NCBI RefSeq assembly: GCF_947623445.1
Contig: NC_135246.1
Location: 20,332,288 to 20,396,287, forward strand
Direction: 5' to 3'
Origin: Clavelina lepadiformis
Lineage: Eukaryota; Chordata; Ascidiacea; Aplousobranchia; Clavelinidae
Length of the DNA stretch: 64,000 nucleotides
Part shown: in pieces, positions 6,430-56,200 of the stretch
Numbering within the stretch: position 1 is the first letter of the stretch
Layout of the letters: each line of letters starts with the position of its first letter
Position numbers and translations under genes: made by a program
The notes under the pieces: model-generated
Seen by the model: the letters and a program-made list of their open reading frames with translations, nothing else
Database searches by the model: none
Told to the model about the DNA's origin: nothing

Positions 6430-6748
6430 TTAGAAATAGTCGTTGGTCAGATAACCATTTTCTAAATAGGGTTAACAAATGTCTACTGAGTGTAACCATT
6501 TTATAAATAGGATTGGGGTTAGTTATAATTCGCACGGGTACAAACGTAAGTTTTGTAAGTTATAATTCGCACGGGTACAAATATGCACGAAGTAACTATT
6601 ACCAAATGTATCTCGCAACGTATACGGGTATCAAATTGCACGAAGTAACAATTACCAAATGTATCTCGCAGCGTATACGGGTATCAAATTGCACGAAGTA
6701 AAAATTACCAAATGTATCTCGCAACGTATACGGGTATCAAATTGCCTT
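6430..6748 (+). repeat. Short copy of the 41-bp / 53-bp composite repeat
   Basis: It starts with about two units of the 41-bp minisatellite (TAAATAGGGTTAACAAATG). The junction motif TATAATTCGCACGGGTACAA follows twice, then about three units of the 53-bp repeat (ACCAAATGTATCTCGCAACG, then TATACGGGTATCAAATTGC and ACGAAGTAA). The core and the opposite arm of the larger copies are missing. Confidence 0.85.
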
Positions 6749-14240: not shown

Positions 14241-15525
14241 TAGGGTTAGTTATAATTAGCACGGGTACAAACGTAAGTTTTGTAAGTTGTAATTCGCACG
14301 GGTACAAATATGCAGGAAGTAACTATTACCAAATGTATCTCGCAACGTTGCGGGTATTAAATTGCACGAAGTAACAATTACCAAATGTATCTCGCAACGT
14401 ATACGGGTATCAAATTGCACGAAGTAAAAATTACCAAATGTATCTCGCATCGTATACGGGTATCAAATTGCCAAAAAGTATGGTATCTGGAAAATGGCTA
14501 CGCATTTTGTAGCCATTTCCAGATTAACTTGCAAATCACTACTCCAAATTAGAAATTTAACTGGGCAACTCGCAAAAGGCTATTGTATTGCACAGCGTTT
14601 AACTTTTGCAATTTTAATTTTGTGGTTAGTAAAGAAACATATTGCAATAATTTTGATTAAAAAAGTGTTTTAGGCAAAGAACCGCAAGATGAAGCCAGAC
14701 AAGTCTATTTTTTGAATTTCGATTCATCTGCGTCAAGTGGTGAAAGCGTTTTATTGCAGTAAAATATTGTGTTTGCTGTTTCAAATTTGAGAAAATTAAT
14801 TTTTCTCAAACGCGTAAAAACGCTGTGTGTTAGTGATTGTTGGTAGGCCCAACGTCGAATCGTGTAAGATTGTAGTTAGCGCGCCAACCTAGGTCTGACG
14901 AAGATTTTTTGTTGCAATTTGATACCCGTATACGTTGCGAGATACATTTGGTAATTTTTACTTCGTGCAATTTGATACCCGTATACGTTGCGAGATACAT
15001 TTGGTAATAGTTACTTCGTGCAATTTGTTACCCGTATAAGTTGCGAGATACATTTGGTAATTGTTACTTCGTGCAATTTGATACCCGTATAAGTTGCGAG
15101 ATACATTTGGTAATTTTTACTTCGTGCAATTTGATACCCGTATACGTTGCGAGATACATTTGGTAATTGTTACTTCGTGCAATTTGATACCCGTATACGT
15201 TGCGAGATACATTTGGTATTTGTTACTTCGTGCAATTTGTTACCCGTATACGTTGCGAGATACATTTGGTAATTGTTACTTCGTGCAATTTGATACCCGT
15301 ATACGTTGCGAGATACATTTGGTAATAGTTTCTTCGTGCATATTTCTACCCGTGCGAATTATAACTTACAAAACTTACGTTTGTACCCGTGCGAATTATA
15401 AGTTACAAAAAATACGAACGCAATGCGAATGAAATGAATTTGTTGCTTTAGTACCTCAAGACACTTAGATATATTATTATATATAACAAATATTATTCTT
15501 ATATAAAAGAAATCTATGGCTACAC
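14241..15525 (+). mobile_element. Foldback-like element: 53-bp repeat arms around a 440-bp core
   Basis: The left arm (14246-14475) holds about three 53-bp units in forward orientation behind TATAATT…GCACGGGTACAA. The core (14476-14914) is single-copy within the element and includes a hairpin with AAATGGCTAC and GTAGCCATTT arms near 14491-14518. The right arm (14915-15375) holds about eight units in the reverse orientation and ends with the inverted ACCCGTGCGAATTATA. A tail (to about 15525) follows. Tandem-repeat arms in opposite orientation around a unique middle is the layout of foldback elements. No transposase is present. The core, right arm and tail recur inverted at 23545-24617. Confidence 0.75.
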
Positions 15526-19375: not shown

Positions 19376-19457
19376 GTTGTCGTGGCCGAGTGGTTAAGAC
19401 GACAGAATCGAAATCTGCTGGGATCTGCCCGCGTAGGTTCGAATCTTGCCGACAATG
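19376..19457 (+). tRNA. tRNA-Ser-like, anticodon CGA
   Basis: Class II cloverleaf: acceptor GTTGTCG/CGACAAT with discriminator G, D-arm TGGCCGAGTGGTTAAGA, long variable arm GGGATCTGCCC, T-loop TTCGAAT. The anticodon loop is ATCGAAA, with an unusual A at position 32, and the top pair of the anticodon stem is A-C. Possibly a degraded copy. Confidence 0.6.
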
Positions 19458-19533
19458 CCGAAATGAAATCATGTTTTCACAAGTGATTCGAGAAGAGTGC
19501 GATTTTATCTATTTGCATTGCACATTATGTACA

Positions 19534-19615
19534 GTTGTCGTGGCCGAGTGGTTAAGGCGACAGACTCGAAATCTGCTGGGTCTTGCCGGCGTAGGTTCGA
19601 ATCCCCCCGACAACG
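19534..19615 (+). tRNA. tRNA-Ser-like, anticodon CGA, weak T-stem
   Basis: Acceptor GTTGTCG/CGACAAC and anticodon loop CTCGAAA. The T-stem pairs GTAGG with CCCCC, leaving two mismatches, so it may not fold. Box A and box B are otherwise intact. Confidence 0.5.
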
Positions 19616-19690
19616 TGGAATTAAAATCAGGCTTCCATAAGTGATTTGCGACAGTGCGATTTTATCTATTTGCATTGAACATTAAGCACA

Positions 19691-19772
19691 GTTGTCGTGG
19701 CCGAGTGGTTAAGACGACAGATTACAAATTTGTTGGGCTCTGCCCGCGTATGTTCGAATCTTGCCGACAATG
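19691..19772 (+). tRNA. tRNA-Ser-like body, anticodon ACA (Cys codon UGU)
   Basis: The anticodon stem ACAGA/TTTGT (one G-T pair) closes the loop TTACAAA, giving anticodon ACA at 19724-19726. Body, variable arm (GGGCTCTGCCC) and acceptor are those of a serine tRNA. A near-identical copy follows at 19848. Confidence 0.55.
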
Positions 19773-19847
19773 CGGAATTGAAATCATGCTTCCATAAGTG
19801 ATTTGCGACAGTGCGATTTTATCTATTTGCATTGAACATTAAGCACA

Positions 19848-19929
19848 GTTGTCGTGGCCGAGTGGTTAAGACGACAGATTACAAATTTGTTGGGTTCTGC
19901 CCGCGTATGTTCGAATCTTGCCGACAATG
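19848..19929 (+). tRNA. tRNA-Ser-like body, anticodon ACA
   Basis: Same as the copy at 19691 with one change in the variable arm (GGGTTCTGCCC). The acceptor ends CGACAAT, closing with a G-T pair. Confidence 0.55.
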
Positions 19930-19982
19930 CGGAATTGAAATCATGCTTCCATAAGTGATTTGCGAAAAGTGCTGTTTCGTCT

Positions 19983-20343
19983 CCATGACTACGCTAGACT
20001 GCGCTAGATTGCGCTAGACTACGCTCGACTACGCTCGACTACGCTCGACTACGCTCGACTACGCTCGACTACGCTCGACTACGCTCGACTACGCCCGACT
20101 ACGCTCGACTACGCTCGACTACGCCCAACTACGCCCGACGACGCCCGACTACGCCCGACTACGCAAGACTACGCAAGACTACGCAAGACTACGCCCGACT
20201 ACGCCCGACTACGCCCGACTACGCCCGACTACGCTCGACTACGCCCGACTACGCCCGACTACGCCCGACTACGCCCGACTACGCCCGACTACGCCCGACT
20301 ACGCCCGACTACGCAAGACTACGCAAAACTACGCAAGACTACG
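19983..20343 (+). repeat. 10-bp satellite (CGACTACGCY)n, array 1
   Basis: About 36 units of CGACTACGCC or CGACTACGCT, with a few AGACTACGCA variants at the end. It follows a tRNA spacer (GTGCTGTTTCG…) and runs straight into TAGAATCTTGCCGACAATG, the 3' part of a tRNA unit. Confidence 0.95.
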
Positions 20344-20439
20344 CTAGAATCTTGCCGACAATGCGGAATTGAAATCAGGTTTTCATACGTGATTCGAGAA
20401 AAGTGCGAATTTATCTATTTGCGTTGAATATTAAGCACA

Positions 20440-20521
20440 GTTGTCGTGGCCGAGTGGCTAAGGCGACAGACTTGAAATCTGTTGGGCCTTGCCGACGTAG
20501 GTTCGAATCCTGCCGACAACG
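20440..20521 (+). tRNA. tRNA-Ser, anticodon TGA
   Basis: The best-formed copy of its block. Acceptor GTTGTCG/CGACAAC plus G73, D-arm GGCCGAGTGGCTAAGGC, anticodon stem ACAGA/TCTGT fully paired around CTTGAAA, T-arm GTAGG/CCTGC around TTCGAAT. The variable arm GGGCCTTGCCG is slightly weakened. Decodes UCA and likely the UCN family. Confidence 0.85.
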
Positions 20522-20597
20522 TGGAATTAAAATCACGCTTCCATAAGTCATTTGCGAAAAGTGCGATTTTATCTATTTGCATTGAACATTAAGCACA

Positions 20598-20679
20598 GTT
20601 GTCGTGGCCGAGTGGTTAAGGCGACAGATTCGAAATCTGCTGGGATCTGCCCGCGTAGGTTCGAATCTTGCCGACAATG
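20598..20679 (+). tRNA. tRNA-Ser-like, anticodon CGA
   Basis: Anticodon loop TTCGAAA and acceptor GTTGTCG/CGACAAT. The anticodon stem has an A-C mismatch at its top (ACAGA/TCTGC). The variable arm is GGGATCTGCCC. Confidence 0.65.
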
Positions 20680-20755
20680 CCGAAATGAAATCATGTTTTC
20701 ACAAGTGATTCGAGAAGAGTGCGATTTTATCTATTTGCATTGCACATTATGTACA

Positions 20756-20837
20756 GTTGTCGTGGCCGAATGGTTAAGGCGACAGACTCGAGATCTGCTG
20801 GGTCTTGCCGGCGTAGGTTCGAATCCCGCCGACAATG
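20756..20837 (+). tRNA. tRNA-Ser-like, anticodon CGA
   Basis: Anticodon loop CTCGAGA, with position 37 changed to G. The D-loop has AATGG instead of AGTGG, disturbing box A. The T-stem is GTAGG/CCCGC with one mismatch. Probably a weakened copy. Confidence 0.55.
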
Positions 20838-20912
20838 TGGAATTAAAATCAGGCTTCCATAAGTGATTTGCGACAGTGCGATTTTATCTATTTGCATTGA
20901 ACATTAAGCACA

Positions 20913-20994
20913 GTTGTCGTGGCCGAGTGGATAAGACGACAGATTACAAATTTGTTGGGTTCTGCCCGCGTATGTTCGAATCTTGCCGACAATG
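20913..20994 (+). tRNA. tRNA-Ser-like body, anticodon ACA
   Basis: Like 19848 but with GTGGATAAGAC in the D-arm. Anticodon loop TTACAAA. Followed by spacer and then a 10-bp repeat array. Confidence 0.55.
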
Positions 20995-21046
20995 CGGAAT
21001 TGAAATCATGCTTCCATAAGTGATTTGCGAAAAGTGCTGTTTCGTT

Positions 21047-21308
21047 ACCATGACTACGCTAGCCTGCGCTAGATTGCGATCGACTACGCTCAACTACGAT
21101 CGACTACGCTCGACTACGCTCCACTACGCTCGACTACGCTCGACTACGCCCGACTACGCCCGACTACGCCCGACGACGTCCCACCACGCCCGACTACGCC
21201 CGACTACGCCCGACTACGCCCGACTACGCCCGACTACGCCCGACTACGCCGGACTACGCCCGACTACGCCCGACTACGCAAGACTACGCAAGACTACGCA
21301 AGACTACG
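21047..21308 (+). repeat. 10-bp satellite array 2
   Basis: About 26 units of the same repeat, with the same left and right junctions as array 1 (AAGACTACGCTAGAATCTTG at the right end). Confidence 0.95.
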
Positions 21309-21388
21309 CTAGAATCTTGCCGACAATGCGGAATTGAAATCATGCTTCCATAAGTGATTTGCGAAAAGTGCTGTTTCGTTACCATGAC

Positions 21389-22122
21389 TACGATAGCCTG
21401 CGCTAGATTGCGCTCGACTACGCTCAACTACGATCGACTACGCAATACTACGCCCGACTACGCCCGACTACGCCCGACTACGCCCGACTATACCCGACTA
21501 TACCCGACTATACCCGACTACGCCCGACTACGCCCGACTACGCCCGACTACGCCCGACTACGCCCGACTACGCCCGACTACGCCCGACTACGCCCGACTA
21601 CGCCCGACTACGCCCGACTACGCCCGACTACGCCCGACTATACCCGACTATACCCGACTACGCCCGACTACGCCCGACTACGCCCGACTACGCCCGACTA
21701 CGCCCGACTACGCCCGACTACGCCCGACGACGCCCCACCACGCCCGACTACGCCCGACTACGCCCGACTACGCCCGACTACGCCCGACTACGCCCGACTA
21801 CGCCCGACTACGCCCGACTACGCCCGACTACGCCCGACTACGCCCGACTACGCCCGACTACGCTCGACTACGCCCGACTACGCCGGACTACGCCCGACTA
21901 CGCTCGACTACGCCCGACTACGCCCGACTACGCCCGACTACGCCCGACTACGCCCGACGACGTCCCACCATCGCCGACTACGCCCGACTACGCCCGACTA
22001 CGCCCGACTACGCTCGACTACGCCCAACTACGCCCGACTACGCCCGACTACGCCCGTCTACGCCGGACTACGCCCGACTACGTCCGACTACGCAAGACTA
22101 CGCAAGACTACGCAAGACTACG
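21389..22122 (+). repeat. 10-bp satellite array 3 (longest)
   Basis: About 73 units, some with TATACCCGACTA variants. Because 10 bp is not a multiple of three, all frames read the same 10-residue repeat (RLRPTTPDYA), giving a 265-codon open frame that is an artefact. The right junction is again a tRNA 3' stub. Confidence 0.95.
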
Positions 22123-22218
22123 CTAGAATCTTGCCGACAATGCGGAATTGAAATCATGTTTTCATAAGTGATTCGAGAAAAGAGCGATTTTTTCTATTTG
22201 CATTGCACATTAAGCACA

Positions 22219-22300
22219 ATTGTCGTGGCCGAGTGGTTAAGGCGACAGACTTGAAATCTGTTGGGCCTTGCCCTCGTAGGTTCGAATCCTGCCGACAACG
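22219..22300 (+). tRNA. tRNA-Ser-like, anticodon TGA, A1-C72 mismatch
   Basis: A well-paired body with anticodon loop CTTGAAA. The first acceptor base is A (ATTGTCG/CGACAAC), so the terminal pair is lost. The variable arm is GGGCCTTGCCC. Confidence 0.7.
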
Positions 22301-22376
22301 CGGAATTGAAATCATGCTTCCATAAGTGATTCGCGGAAAGTACCATTTTATCTAATTGCATTGCACATTAAGCACA

Positions 22377-22458
22377 GTTGTTGTGGCCGAGTGGTTAAGG
22401 CGATAGACTTCAAATCTGTTGCGCCTTGCCCGCGTAGGTCCGAATCCTGCCGACAACG
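22377..22458 (+). tRNA. tRNA-Ser-like body, anticodon TCA (UGA stop)
   Basis: Acceptor GTTGTTG/CGACAAC pairs fully (one T-G). The anticodon stem ATAGA/TCTGT closes the loop CTTCAAA, anticodon TCA at 22410-22412. The T-loop is TCCGAAT rather than TTCGAAT, which alters box B and the T55 position, so function is doubtful. It is unlike a selenocysteine tRNA, which has a longer acceptor. Confidence 0.5.
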
Positions 22459-22542
22459 GAGATATTAATTTTGCAAATTCACATGTATATTGAGAAAAGT
22501 GCCACTTTAATCATTTCGTCTATTCATAGATCATTAAGCATA

Positions 22543-22624
22543 GTTTTCTTGGCTGAGTGGTTAAGGCGACAGACTACAAATCTGTTGTGCTCTGCCCGCG
22601 TATGTTCGAATCCTGCCGACAACG
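22543..22624 (+). pseudogene. tRNA-Ser pseudogene, anticodon ACA
   Basis: The acceptor 5' strand GTTTTCT no longer pairs with CGACAAC. The anticodon loop is CTACAAA with a fully paired stem. The upstream spacer is 8 bp longer than usual. Confidence 0.65.
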
Positions 22625-22700
22625 CGGAATTGAAATCAGGTTTCCATAAGTGATTTGCGAAAAATGCCATTTGCTCCATTTGCATTTCACATTAAGCACA

Positions 22701-22782
22701 GTTGTCGTGGCCGAGTGTTTAAGGCGATTGACTACAAATCTGTTGGGCTCTGCCCGCGTATGTTCGAATCCTGCCGACAACG
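22701..22782 (+). tRNA. tRNA-Ser-like body, anticodon ACA, weak stem
   Basis: Good acceptor, but the anticodon stem ATTGA/TCTGT has a T-T mismatch, and the D-loop reads GAGTGTTTAAGG, altering box A. Anticodon loop CTACAAA. Confidence 0.45.
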
Positions 22783-22858
22783 CGGAATTGAAATCATGCT
22801 TCCATAAGTGATTTGCAAAAAAAGCCATTTGATCCATTTGCATTGAACATTAAGCACA

Positions 22859-22940
22859 GTTGTCGTGTCCGAGTGGTTAAGGCGACAGATTCGAAATCTT
22901 CTAGGCTGTGCCCGCGTATGTTCGAATCTAGCCGACAATG
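22859..22940 (+). pseudogene. tRNA-Ser pseudogene, anticodon CGA
   Basis: Box A is changed (GTGTCCGAG), the anticodon stem ACAGA/TCTTC has two mismatches and the variable arm GGCTGTGCCC is shifted. Probably inactive. Confidence 0.6.
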
Positions 22941-23005
22941 CGGAATTGAAATCATGTTTTCATGTTCAATGCGATTTTAACTATTTGCATTGAACATTAA
23001 GCACA

Positions 23006-23087
23006 GTTGTCGTGGCCGAGTGGTTGAGACGACAGATTACAAATTTGTTGGGCTCGGCCCGCGTAGGTTCGAAACCTGCCGATAACG
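23006..23087 (+). tRNA. tRNA-Ser-like body, anticodon ACA
   Basis: Anticodon loop TTACAAA. The T-loop region reads TTCGAAA and the acceptor 3' strand CGATAAC, with one G-T pair in place of G-C or T-A. The preceding spacer is 11 bp shorter than usual. Confidence 0.5.
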
Positions 23088-23163
23088 CGGAATTGAAATC
23101 ATGCTTCCATAAGTGATTCGCGGAAAGTAGCATTATATCTAATTGCATTGCACATTAAGCACA

Positions 23164-23245
23164 GTTGTTGTGGCCGAGTGGTTAAGGCGATAGACTTGAA
23201 ATCTGTTGGGCCTTGCCCGCGTAGGTTCGAATCCTGCCGACAACG
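23164..23245 (+). tRNA. tRNA-Ser, anticodon TGA
   Basis: Fully paired acceptor GTTGTTG/CGACAAC (one T-G), anticodon stem ATAGA/TCTGT around CTTGAAA, variable arm GGGCCTTGCCC and T-arm GTAGG/CCTGC. This and the copy at 20440 are the best candidates for working tRNA-Ser(UGA) genes. Confidence 0.85.
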
Positions 23246-23295: not shown

Positions 23296-23464
23296 CTTTG
23301 CCCGCGTACGCTCGACAATGCTCAACTCGGCTTTGCTCGCGTACGCTCGACTACGCTCAACTACGCACGACTACGCACGACTACGCACGACTACGCACGA
23401 CTACGCACGACTACGCACGACTACGCACGACTACGCACGACTACGCACGACTACGCACGACTAC
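23296..23464 (+). repeat. 10-bp satellite array 4 (CGACTACGCA)n
   Basis: A degenerate start (GTACGCTCGAC, then CTCAACT) leads into about twelve near-identical CGACTACGCA units. It ends the tRNA region; no tRNA stub follows. Confidence 0.9.
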
Positions 23465-23539: not shown

Positions 23540-24790
23540 AAACAGCAAAGTATAGCCATAGATTTCTTTTATATAATAATAATATTTGTTATATCTAATA
23601 ATATATCTAAGTGTCTTGAGGTACCAAAGCAAAACATTAATTTCATTCGCATTGCGTTCGTAATTTTTGTAAGTTATAATTCGCACGGGTACAAATATGC
23701 ACGAAGTAACAATTACCAAATGTATCTCGCAACGTATACGGGTATTAAGTTGCACGATATAAACATTACCAAATGTATCTTGCAACTTATACGGGTATCA
23801 AATTGCACGAAGTAACAATTACCAAATGTATCTCGCAACGTATACGGGTATCAAAATGCAAATCAATTGGTAATAGTTACTTCGTGCATATTTGTATAAT
23901 TCCCACGGGTACAAACGTAAGTTTTGTAAGTTATAATTCGCACGGGTACAAATATGCACGAAGTAACTATTACCAAATGTATCTCGCAACGTATACGGGT
24001 ATCAAATTGCACGAAGTAAAAAATACCAAATGTATCTCGCAACATATACCGGTATCAAATTTCACGTAATGTAGTAATAATTACCAAATGTATCTCACAA
24101 CTTATACGGGTATCAAATTGCACGAAGTAACAATTACCAAATGTATCTCGCGACGTATACGGATATCAAATTGCAACAAAAAATATTCGTCGGACCTAGG
24201 TTGGCGCGCTAACTACAATCTTACACGATTCGACGCTGGGCCTACAAACAATCACTAACACACAGCGTTTTTACGCGTTTGAGAAAAAGATAAATTTTCA
24301 CAAATTTGAAACAGCAAACACAATATTTTACTGCAATAAAACGCTTTCACCACTTGACGCAGGTGAATCGAAATTCAAAAAAAAGACTTGTCTGGCTTCA
24401 TCTTACGGTTCTTTACCTAAAACACTTTTTTAATCAAAATTATTGCAATATGTTTCTTTACTATCCACAAAATTAAAATTGCAAAAGTTAAACGCTGTGC
24501 AATACAATAGCCTATCTCGAGTTGCTCAGTTAAATTTCTAATTTGGAGTAGTGATTTGCAAGTTAATCTGGAAATGGCTACAAAATGCGTAGCCATTTTC
24601 CACATAACATACTTTTTGGCAATTTGATACCCGTATACGATGCAAGATACATTTGGTAATTTTTACTTCGTGCAATTTGATACCCGTCTACGTTGCGAGA
24701 TACATTTGGTAATTGTTACTTCGTGCAATTTAATACCCGCAACGTTGCGATATACATTTGGTAATAGTTACTTCGTGCGTATTTGTATAA
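23540..24790 (-). mobile_element. Foldback-like element, inverted copy
   Basis: In inverted order relative to 14241-15525: tail (23545-23665), an arm of 53-bp units (23665-24175), core (24176-24617) and a short opposite arm (24618-24780). Core and tail match 14476-15525 closely in reverse complement. A second GCACGGGTACAA junction lies inside the arm near 23905-23950. Confidence 0.8.
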
Positions 24791-26915
24791 TTCGCACGGG
24801 TAAAACGGAAGTTTTGTAAGTTATAATTCGCATGGCTGCAAATATGCACGAAATAACTAGTACTAAATGTATCTCGCAACGTATACGGGTATCAAATTGC
24901 ACGAAGTAACAATTACCAAATGTATTTCGCAACGTATACTGGTTTTAAGTTGCACGATGTAAAAATTACCAAATGTATCTCGCAACTTATACGGGTATCA
25001 AATTGCACGAAGTAACAATTACCAAATGTATCTCGCAACCTATACGGGTATCAAATTGCACGAAGTAACAATTACCAAATGTATCTTGCAACTTATACGG
25101 GTATCAAATTGCACGAAGTAACAATTACCAAATGTATCTCGCAACTTATACGGGTATCAAATTGCACGAAGTAACAATTACCAAATGTATCTCGCAACGT
25201 ATACTGGTATTAAGTTGCACGATGTAAAAATTACCAAATGAATCTCGCAACTTATACGGGTATCAAATTGCACGAAGTAACAATTATCAAATGTATCTCG
25301 CAACTTTTACGGGTATCAAATGGCACGAAGTAACAATTACCAAATGTATCTCGCAACTTATACGGGTATTAATTTGCACGAAGTAACTAGTACCAAATGT
25401 ATCTAGCAATCTATACGGGTATCAAATTGTACGAAGTAACAATTACCAAATGTATCTCGCAACTTATACGGGTATTAATTTGCACGAAGTAACTAGTACC
25501 AAATGTATCTCGCAACGTATACGGGTATCAAATTGCACGAAGTAACAATTACCAAATGTATCTCGCAACGTATACGGGTATCAAATTGCACGAAGTAACA
25601 ATTACCAAATGTATCTCGCAACGTATACGGGTATCAAATTGCACGAAGTAACAATTACCAAATGTATCTCGCAACTTATACGGGTATCAAATTGCACGAA
25701 GTAACAATTACCAAATGTATCTCGCAACGTATACGGGTATCAAATTGCACGAAGTAACAATTACCAAATGTATCTCGCAACGTATACGGGTATCAATTTG
25801 CACGAAGTAACAAATACCAAATGTATCTCGCAACTTATACGGGTATCAAATTGCACGAAGTAACAATTACCAAATGTATCTCGCAACTTATACGGGCATT
25901 AATTTGCACGAAGTAATTAGTACCAAACGTATCTCGCAACGTATACGGGTATCAAATTGCACGAAGTAACAATTACCAAATGTATCTCGCAACTTATACG
26001 GGTATCAAATTGCACGAAGTAACAATTACCAAATGTATCTCGCAACGTATACGGGTATCAAATTGCACGAAGTAACAATTACCAAATGTATCTCGCAACG
26101 TATACGGGTATCAAATTGCACGAAGTAACAATTACCAAATGTATCTCGCAACTTATACGGGTATTAATTTGCACGAAGTAACTAGTACCAAATGTATCTC
26201 GCAACGTATACGGGTATCAAATTGCACGAAGTAACAATTACCAAATGTATCTCGCAACGTATACGGGTATCAAATTGCACGAAGTAACAATTACCAAATG
26301 TATCTTGCAACTTATACGGGTATCAAATTGCACGAAGTAACAATTACCAAATGTATCTCGCAACTTATACGGGTATCAAATTGCACGAAGTAACAATTAC
26401 CAAATGTATCTCGCAACGTATATGGGTATCAAATTGCAACATAAAATCTTCGTCGGACCTAGGTTGGCGCGCTAACTACAATCTTACACGATTCGACGTT
26501 GGGCCTACCAACAATCACTAACACACAGCCTTTTTACGCGTTACGAATTTGAAACAGTAAACACAATATTTTACTGCAATAAAACGCTTTCACCACTTGA
26601 CGCAGATGAATCGAAATTCAAAAAATAGACTTGTCTGGCTTCATCTTGCGGTTCTTTACCTAAAACACTTTTTTAATCAAAATTATTGCAATTTGTTTCT
26701 TTACTATCCACAAAATTAAAAATTGCAAAAGTTAAACGCTGTGCAATACAATAGCCTTTTGCGAGTTGTCCAGTTAAATTTCTAATTTGGAGTAGTGATT
26801 TGCAAGTTAATCTGGAAATGGCTACAAAATGCGTAGCCATTTTCCAGATACCATACTTTTTGGCAATTTGATACCCGTATACGATGCGAGATATATTTGG
26901 TAATAGTTACTTCTT
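24791..26915 (-). mobile_element. Foldback-like element with an expanded 53-bp array
   Basis: A junction motif at 24788-24850 starts about 30 head-to-tail 53-bp units (to 26436), with variants such as AACTTATACGGG and TTAATTTGCACGAAGTAACT recurring in blocks. The core follows at 26437-26857 and less than one inverted unit to 26912. Blocks of variants repeat every few units, a sign of local amplification by unequal exchange. Confidence 0.85.
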
Positions 26916-55234: not shown

Positions 55235-56200
55235 CTCTTACAAGCTCTGCGAAACGTCTACATTCCTAGGGAATCCTTGACTGTGGATGAACAACTCATC
55301 GGATATCGAGGCAAAATTGCTGGAAGAACATTCATGCCATCGAAACCAAGGAAATATGGTGTAAAGTTCTTTTGGCTGTGTGAAGCCACATCAGGTTTTG
55401 CTCTAAATGGCATTATTTATTCCGGAAAAGAAACCGACTCGGCTCCTGACAGAAATCTTGCAAATGATATAGTGATGAACTTGTGTTTTGTTTACTTTGG
55501 TACTGGTCGTGACATATACATTGACAGATATTTTACATCTCTTGGTCTTGTTTACAGTCTCTTGCTTCAAAAGCTTACATTGGTAGGAACAGTAATGGCT
55601 AATCGCCGTGAAGTTCCATCGCAGCTCAAGTCAGCAAGGAGAAGAGAGGTGGAAAGTACTGAAGCATTGTATGACCATTTGAACAACATTCTGCTATTGT
55701 CATATGTACCAAAACGAAACAGGAATTTCCTCATGATATCTTCTTCACACTCTTCTGTTTCCATCACTGAAACTCACAGGAAACCTACAGCTATCATGGA
55801 TTACAACAAACATAAAGGTGGAGTTGACACTCTTGATGAAAACTGTGAAAAATTCAATTGCTTGAGGAAAACAAATTGTTTGCCAATGGTTAATAATTAC
55901 AATTTGATAAATGTTGCCAGTAACAACGCATTTCTCATTATAAGAGGCAATGGGAAAAGTAACAAAAAAACAGATTTTCTAAAAAACCTTAGCTTTCAGC
56001 TTGCTCAACCATATGTCATCCAAAGAAAATTGGCGGTAGAAGCTAAACTACTTGCCGAAAAGTTGAGGTTCGTTGATGCTGCTACTTCAAGCACTTTCAA
56101 TGGCACAGTTCAAGGTATCAAACGGGGAAGATGCTACAGATGTGCAGAGCATACTCGATCTGCATGTGTCACTTGTAGCCGACGGGTTTACGACTTGTAG
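55235..56200 (+). CDS. piggyBac transposase, N-terminally truncated
   Basis: The open frame starts after a TAG at 55232 and has no ATG before the conserved region; it reads YIPRESLTVDEQLIGYRGK. The catalytic aspartates are present: one in LTVDEQL, one in IYIDRYFTS and two in GGVDTLDENCE. Other family blocks include MPSKPRKYGVKFFWLC, GTVMANRREVP and FNCLRKTNCLPM. The C-terminus has CYRCAEHTRSACVTC, a shortened cysteine-rich DNA-binding domain. At about 320 residues it is just over half the usual ~590; the N-terminal half cannot fit in the 430 bp upstream. Probably unable to transpose on its own. Confidence 0.93.
   Translation, partial: LLQALRNVYIPRESLTVDEQLIGYRGKIAGRTFMPSKPRKYGVKFFWLCEATSGFALNGIIYSGKETDSAPDRNLANDIVMNLCFVYFGTGRDIYIDRYFTSLGLVYSLLLQKLTLVGTVMANRREVPSQLKSARRREVESTEALYDHLNNILLLSYVPKRNRNFLMISSSHSSVSITETHRKPTAIMDYNKHKGGVDTLDENCEKFNCLRKTNCLPMVNNYNLINVASNNAFLIIRGNGKSNKKTDFLKNLSFQLAQPYVIQRKLAVEAKLLAEKLRFVDAATSSTFNGTVQGIKRGRCYRCAEHTRSACVTCSRRVYDL

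Follow-up and report, generated by a model that had tools for sequence, protein, structure and literature searches.

The 64,000-nucleotide stretch of the Clavelina lepadiformis genome analyzed here (the window; C7:20332288-20396287, within a searched genome of 209.06 Mb and 95 contigs) carries a tandem array of transfer RNA (tRNA) genes 93-97 kb from the end of C7. ARAGORN called 14 tRNAs at 19376-23245 with anticodons CGA (four), TGA (three), ACA (six), and TCA (one), and all 14 exceeded the Rfam tRNA gathering score. The copies recur at a period of 157-158 bp and have the body of a serine tRNA, but seven lack a serine anticodon: the six ACA copies, starting at 19691, 19848, 20913, 22543, 22701, and 23006, and the TCA copy. 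A reading of the stretch from sequence alone had placed an ACA at 19724-19726 and the TCA at 22410-22412, where they are indeed found, had counted the same seven copies, and had suggested that, if expressed and charged, they would insert serine at cysteine or UGA codons. The analysis reported here indicates instead that the array most probably consists of tRNA-derived subtelomeric repeats in decay and not of working code-rewriting tRNAs. The array and its separating minisatellites are as follows (window positions).

19376-19459, plus strand: serine-body copy, CGA, block 1 (ARAGORN; Rfam 38.4 bits)
19534-19615, plus strand: serine-body copy, CGA, block 1 (ARAGORN; Rfam 50.4 bits)
19691-19773, plus strand: serine-body copy, ACA, with C11:A24 and T52:T62 mismatches (ARAGORN; Rfam 39.1 bits)
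19848-19930, plus strand: serine-body copy, ACA, with C11:A24 and T52:T62 mismatches and 80 nt downstream free of TTTT (ARAGORN; Rfam 39.1 bits)
19987-20348, no strand: 10-bp minisatellite separating blocks (repeat analysis)
20440-20521, plus strand: serine-body copy, TGA, the window's top score (ARAGORN; Rfam 62.8 bits)
20598-20681, plus strand: serine-body copy, CGA, block 2, in a clade of three that also includes 19376 and a C4 copy (ARAGORN; Rfam 50.8 bits; tree)
20756-20837, plus strand: serine-body copy, CGA, block 2, in a four-member clade with 19534 (ARAGORN; Rfam 49.6 bits; tree)
20913-20995, plus strand: serine-body copy, ACA, block 2, sister to 19848, with C11:A24 and T52:T62 mismatches (ARAGORN; Rfam 36.8 bits; tree)
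21081-22123, no strand: 10-bp minisatellite of about 104 copies, broken by a tRNA 3' part near 21312
22219-22301, plus strand: serine-body copy, TGA, block 3 (ARAGORN; Rfam 57.3 bits)
22377-22458, plus strand: serine-body copy, TCA, with one variable-arm mismatch, B-box T55 changed to C, and TTTT 10 nt downstream (ARAGORN; Rfam 55.6 bits)
22543-22625, plus strand: serine-body copy, ACA, with two acceptor mismatches, T52, and one variable-arm mismatch (ARAGORN; Rfam 34.0 bits)
22701-22783, plus strand: serine-body copy, ACA, lacking the second G of the D-loop GG, with a 29:41 mismatch and T52 (ARAGORN; Rfam 40.9 bits)
22859-22940, plus strand: degraded serine-body copy, CGA, called by neither ARAGORN nor Rfam
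23006-23088, plus strand: serine-body copy, ACA, with intact T stem and B box, a C11:A24 mismatch, A21 changed to G, and 80 nt downstream free of TTTT (ARAGORN; Rfam 39.6 bits)
23164-23245, plus strand: serine-body copy, TGA, sharing a clade with the TCA copy, with TTTT 10 nt downstream (ARAGORN; Rfam 59.7 bits; tree)

The serine identity of the bodies is clear. In a set of 34 ACA copies, all had G73, 33 had at least three of the four variable-arm pairs, and 29 kept the A box. Seryl-tRNA synthetase recognizes its substrates by G73 and the long variable arm rather than by the anticodon, so any mature RNA made from these copies would receive serine, and to this point the argument of the sequence-only reading rests on established knowledge. 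True cysteine tRNAs have a class I body, U73, and a GCA anticodon, and the ACA copies, with a class II body, G73, and ACA, were rejected as such. The TCA copy was likewise rejected as a selenocysteine tRNA: within the clan, the general tRNA model scored it better than RF01852, and it grouped with TGA copies. The sole RF01852 match above the cut-off, at C6:239410-239495 (75.3 bits; 53 scored of 11016 genome-wide candidates), is a real selenocysteine tRNA.

The ACA form had been described as amplified across three blocks, and its amplification extends well beyond them. At least 244 genome matches were found with a 158-bp unit query. A genome-wide search recovered the exact ACA anticodon arm 32 times and a reversed control pattern not at all, so that recurrence is above chance. 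Twenty-eight of the 32 loops are no farther than about 315 kb from a chromosome end and are distributed over nine such ends (C1R, 1; C3R, 1; C4L, 6; C6R, 8; C7L, 1; C7R, 5; C8L, 2; C8R, 1; C9L, 3), and the other four at C1:4.22 Mb; this genome-wide pattern search placed none in the extensive internal arrays of serine copies on C1 and C2. The C1 end looks telomeric, having TTAGGG arrays nearby among the matches listed; the other ends are those of chromosome-scale contigs. For comparison, the exact AGA arm occurs 206 times, and in a genome-wide search for exact arms, serine-arm TTA loops number seven and the TCA loop of the copy at 22377 is the only one found. Copies of the TTA (ochre) type with serine bodies were seen near chromosome ends at C2:55527, C2:70464, C6:20687605, C8:97975, C8:104118 (loop only), C9:15657910, and C9:15662572, and two TTT copies lie at C8:19.42-19.44 Mb, of which that at 19436790 scores 60.5 bits.

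To compare the condition of copies, we assembled 239 full copies, 145 of them subtelomeric or at C1:4.2 Mb and 94 internal, and dropped partial unit matches; in an earlier set of 188 full copies, 52 of 240 unit matches had been dropped as partial. This sample is not random, since the ACA pattern guided the choice of many loci and sampling of the C2 array covered 9.9 kb only. The C1:4.2 Mb copies are grouped with the subtelomeric set in these counts and were grouped with the internal set in the earliest comparisons; the exact ACA loops at C8:92974 and C8:19440177 fell outside the full-copy set in a 188-copy analysis. All 94 internal copies had serine anticodons. Among the 145 others, 87 had serine anticodons and 58 did not (ACA, 41; TTA, 6; TTT, TTG, and CAA, 2 each; CTA, AAA, GCA, TCA, and ACC, 1 each).

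The ACA copies are damaged where a functional serine tRNA would have a fully paired cloverleaf and an intact B box. None of the 41 had all 24 expected pairs, compared with 44 of the 94 internal copies, and the mean numbers of broken pairs were 2.80 and 0.83, respectively; in some TGA-type variable arms the pair scored as (45,55) does not truly form, which makes broken-pair counts somewhat high there. The substitution T52, which alters both the T stem and the B box, was present in 36 of 41 ACA copies and A24 in 16 of 41, whereas both were absent from the 94 internal copies, and a perfect B box was kept by two of 41 ACA copies versus 85 of 94 internal ones. The earlier statement that several ACA copies of the array keep paired T stems proved too generous. 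Only the copy at 23006 does so, and its D stem contains a mismatch and position 21 is G; in each of the other five, T52 faces C62 or T62. Rfam bit scores in the window ran from 57.3 to 62.8 for TGA, 55.6 for TCA, 38.4 to 50.8 for CGA, and 34.0 to 40.9 for ACA, and the last range lies below every one of 38 sampled copies of the internal C2 array (41.2-64.4). Low covariance scores had been named beforehand as the mark of pseudogenes. The window ACA copies carry that mark; the TCA copy (55.6 bits), a single ACA copy elsewhere (57.2 bits), and a TTA copy elsewhere (63.2 bits) do not.

Damage is not restricted to the ACA class. Subtelomeric copies with AGA, TGA, or CGA anticodons had a mean of 3.02 broken pairs, with all pairs present in nine of 86, T52 in 23, and a perfect B box in 28. 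Decay is thus tied to location as much as to anticodon.

Downstream TTTT runs were also compared. No TTTT occurred within 75 nt of 20 of 41 ACA copies, 13 of 94 internal copies, and 11 of 86 subtelomeric copies with serine anticodons. A first set had given a sharp contrast in TTTT within 15 nt (37 of 56 internal copies versus 0 of 34 ACA copies), which was discarded as a diagnostic when the internal C2 array gave 0 of 38.

Sequence constraint was assessed as the ratio of nearest-neighbor divergence in the tRNA body, excluding positions 26-45, to that in the flanks, at cut-offs of 0.08, 0.15, and 0.25, after dropping identical and gappy units (30 ACA, 87 other subtelomeric, and 52 internal units). 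For ACA copies the ratios were 1.04 (0.64-1.59), 0.81 (0.59-1.12), and 0.65 (0.40-1.04), with all intervals including 1; for other subtelomeric copies, 1.24 (0.89-1.67), 1.08 (0.80-1.51), and 1.02 (0.76-1.40); and for internal copies, 0.70 (0.48-1.02), 0.51 (0.37-0.74), and 0.46 (0.33-0.68). The divergence of the ACA copies is compatible with neutral drift. A comparison of singleton counts was dropped, the spacer columns being shared with diverged internal spacers.

The relationships among units were examined with a tree of 126 units, the number kept in the earlier divergence set, made by a quick method with the anticodon columns left out; 70 of its 123 inner branches were open. The window copies at 19848 and 20913 are sisters (support 86). 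A C4 TGA copy joins the CGA copies at 19376 and 20598 in a clade of three (93), and these groupings give blocks 1 and 2 the appearance, in part, of a duplication. The ACA copy at 22543 belongs to a five-member ACA clade drawn from the C7, C4, C6 (two copies), and C1 ends (Shimodaira-Hasegawa-like approximate likelihood ratio test, SH-aLRT, 99). At C4:25.029 Mb, ACA and AGA copies adjoin and fall in the same three-member clade (85). In the subtelomeres and at C1:4.2 Mb, A34 is found in 33 of 35 distinct units with C35 and in 11 of 76 with G35, a linkage expected if one or a few ancestors spread. We infer that ACA arose once or a few times, when G35 changed to C in an AGA copy, and later passed from unit to unit; a direct change from TGA was rejected, requiring two substitutions versus one from AGA. 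Two TGA copies form a clade with the TCA copy (98), which indicates that TCA arose by a separate change.

These results are what decaying repeats would be expected to show: high copy number with related flanks, and loss of pairing. The authors of tRNAscan-SE 2.0 (PMC8450103) describe disagreement between anticodon and isotype as a strong sign, in some cases, of slowly decaying tRNA-derived repeats, while leaving room for code-breaking "hybrid" tRNAs. In the model we favor, a unit of about 157 bp, comprising one serine tRNA gene and its spacer, would have been carried into chromosome ends and mixed with minisatellites. The distribution and the shared subfamilies suggest that units were then copied between and within ends by unequal exchange or gene conversion. 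A lineage with T52, and hence with a defective T stem and B box, is common at chromosome ends, and in a copy making too little mature tRNA the anticodon would be free to change. A single step, G35 to C in an AGA copy, would give ACA, which could then spread with its unit, and a separate G35 to C in a TGA copy would give TCA. The copies are probably poorly transcribed or their products degraded, so that little or no serine would be added at cysteine or UGA codons. A literature search of open-licence papers found none on these arrays and none on decay of the yeast SUP4oc.

Several observations sit less easily with this model. In seven of the 41 ACA copies, no more than one pair is broken. The ACA copy at C1:28741746-28741828 scores 57.2 bits and has a perfect B box, with no TTTT in the next 110 nt, and that at C4:25029077 scores 52.6 bits; the A27:C43 mismatch of both is shared by internal AGA copies. 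The similar damage in subtelomeric copies with serine anticodons means that the defects are not specific to ACA, and the sampled internal C2 array, with no TTTT within 15 nt of any of 38 copies, also has none within 75 nt of 12. In the divergence test, the ACA ratio at the widest cut-off overlaps the internal one and the internal ratio at the tightest cut-off is itself not clearly below 1, so that weak constraint on the ACA copies is compatible with the data as well. Earlier ratios that included positions 26-45 were below 1 for ACA copies (0.50, 0.41-0.69, and 0.62, 0.45-0.85), although these were biased because a 20-nt anticodon-arm pattern, which fixes those positions, had been used to select most of the ACA loci. 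Finally, ACA requires at least 14 changes on the unit tree, at least four of them forced by well-supported branches, and a single origin would therefore require gene conversion.

A role in chromatin or as a boundary, in which the arrays would act not as tRNA genes but as subtelomeric DNA that binds TFIIIC or is prone to recombination, is an unlikely alternative. The clustering of ACA loops near nine chromosome ends, the retained A box, and the orientation of serine arrays toward the nearer end at nine of 12 sampled ends (away at two, mixed at one) are in its favor. However, TFIIIC mainly contacts the B box, which is imperfect in 39 of 41 ACA copies and in 65 of 98 other subtelomeric copies, and subtelomeric exchange alone could account for both position and orientation.

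The suggestion of working mistranslating tRNAs was not supported. It would have the ACA copies, and also the TCA and TTA copies, transcribed, serylated, and decoding UGU and UGC (UGA and UAA for the latter two) at a low level, damped by the D- and T-stem defects and by competition. Retention of G73 and the long arm is consistent with this, as are the near-internal scores of one ACA copy and one TTA copy. Yeast serine tRNAs with foreign anticodons do work (PMC6827378). There, G9A rendered a toxic arginine-decoding serine tRNA tolerable, and G26A was employed in the same way; a serine tRNA with an ochre (UUA) anticodon was nontoxic even without a second mutation. The widespread T52 and rarity of a perfect B box, the low window scores, and divergence compatible with neutrality speak against it, as does the competition expected from 77 pattern matches to cysteine tRNA (GCA; up to three mismatches allowed), likely real genes separate from the array. 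In Caenorhabditis elegans, mature variable-arm tRNAs with wrong anticodons occur without detectable mistranslation (PMC4300185). We consider this reading improbable for the array; the small probability that it retains reflects a few copies elsewhere in the genome that look nearly intact. There is only a slim chance that a subset of the subtelomeric copies with non-serine anticodons is transcribed and serine charged and thereby supports, at a low level dependent on tissue or stress, insertion of serine for cysteine (ACA) or readthrough of stop codons (TTA, TCA); the best candidates would be the ACA copy at C1:28741746-28741828 and the TTA copy at C2:55527-55608 (63.2 bits), which has TTTT at +45.

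False copies from collapsed or mis-joined repeats are most improbable: tandem repeats are hard to assemble, and identical duplicate units occur at C1:4.218 and 4.224 Mb, but ACA loops are found at nine chromosome ends, where flanks and substitutions differ, and the published assembly kaClaLepa1.1, if it is the same assembly, is given a quality value of 67.4 (PMC10884593).

The Clavelina copies can be set beside several known systems. With the tRNA-derived repeats showing anticodon-isotype disagreement (PMC8450103), they share many copies, conflict between anticodon and body, loss of pairing, and related flanks, but they form tandem subtelomeric units with a full serine body and one dominant mismatch, ACA. 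The nematode nev-tRNAs (PMC4300185) likewise combine a class II body with a non-cognate anticodon and a potential for code ambiguity; those, however, are conserved, mature with CCA, exported, and leucine charged in vitro. The yeast serine tRNA anticodon variants (PMC6827378) share the serine body, the foreign anticodon, and weakening secondary mutations, but were engineered and expressed, while the copies described here are natural and probably decayed. Entamoeba arrays (PMC2652664) also consist of tandem tRNA genes with short tandem repeats between them. Those arrays contain nearly every tRNA gene of that organism and for the most part do not vary within an isolate, whereas the Clavelina copies are diverged and exist beside separate internal arrays. 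In alloacceptor anticodon shifts of eukaryotes (PMC3923123), too, an anticodon substitution alters the codon read, but that survey was based on conserved synteny and reported only one shift with a serine/selenocysteine anticodon.

Other repeats surround the tRNA genes. Minisatellites of 10 bp flank the tRNA blocks at 19987-20348, 21081-22123, and 23342-23464. Their unit, CCGACTACGC, matches the tRNA 3' acceptor strand, CCGACAACGC, at nine of 10 bases, a match equaled by 60 of 5000 shuffled decamers. The minisatellite arrays that end near 20348, 21312, and 22123 each give way to a 3' part of a tRNA. On the basis of these adjoining parts and the acceptor-strand match, the minisatellite may be tRNA derived. 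A 53-bp satellite occurs in both orientations in several arrays (6571-6745, 14298-15353, and 23685-26438), and a 189-bp satellite containing CCCTAACCC-like stretches extends over about 31 kb (32908-64000), interrupted by other sequence. Between satellite stretches, a 321-amino-acid open frame on the plus strand (55235-56200) matches the Pfam transposase family DDE_Tnp_1_7 (9.4e-40). This frame we take to be a piggyBac-like element. Elsewhere in the genome, large internal arrays of Cys(GCA) units about 1710 bp apart (C4:20.68-20.79 Mb) and of Lys/Leu units often about 1180 bp apart (C9:4.94-5.17 Mb) were observed.

The array suggests that relocation of tRNA genes to subtelomeres can be followed by loss of constraint and accumulation of foreign anticodons, among them ACA, TTA, TTT, CTA, and TCA. 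Annotation by anticodon alone would list "tRNA-Cys," "tRNA-SeC," and suppressor genes where serine-bodied repeats are present. Such subtelomeric copies would constitute a reservoir of possible code-breaking tRNAs, and if any copy is expressed, it would provide a natural test of the tolerance of an animal to mistranslation.

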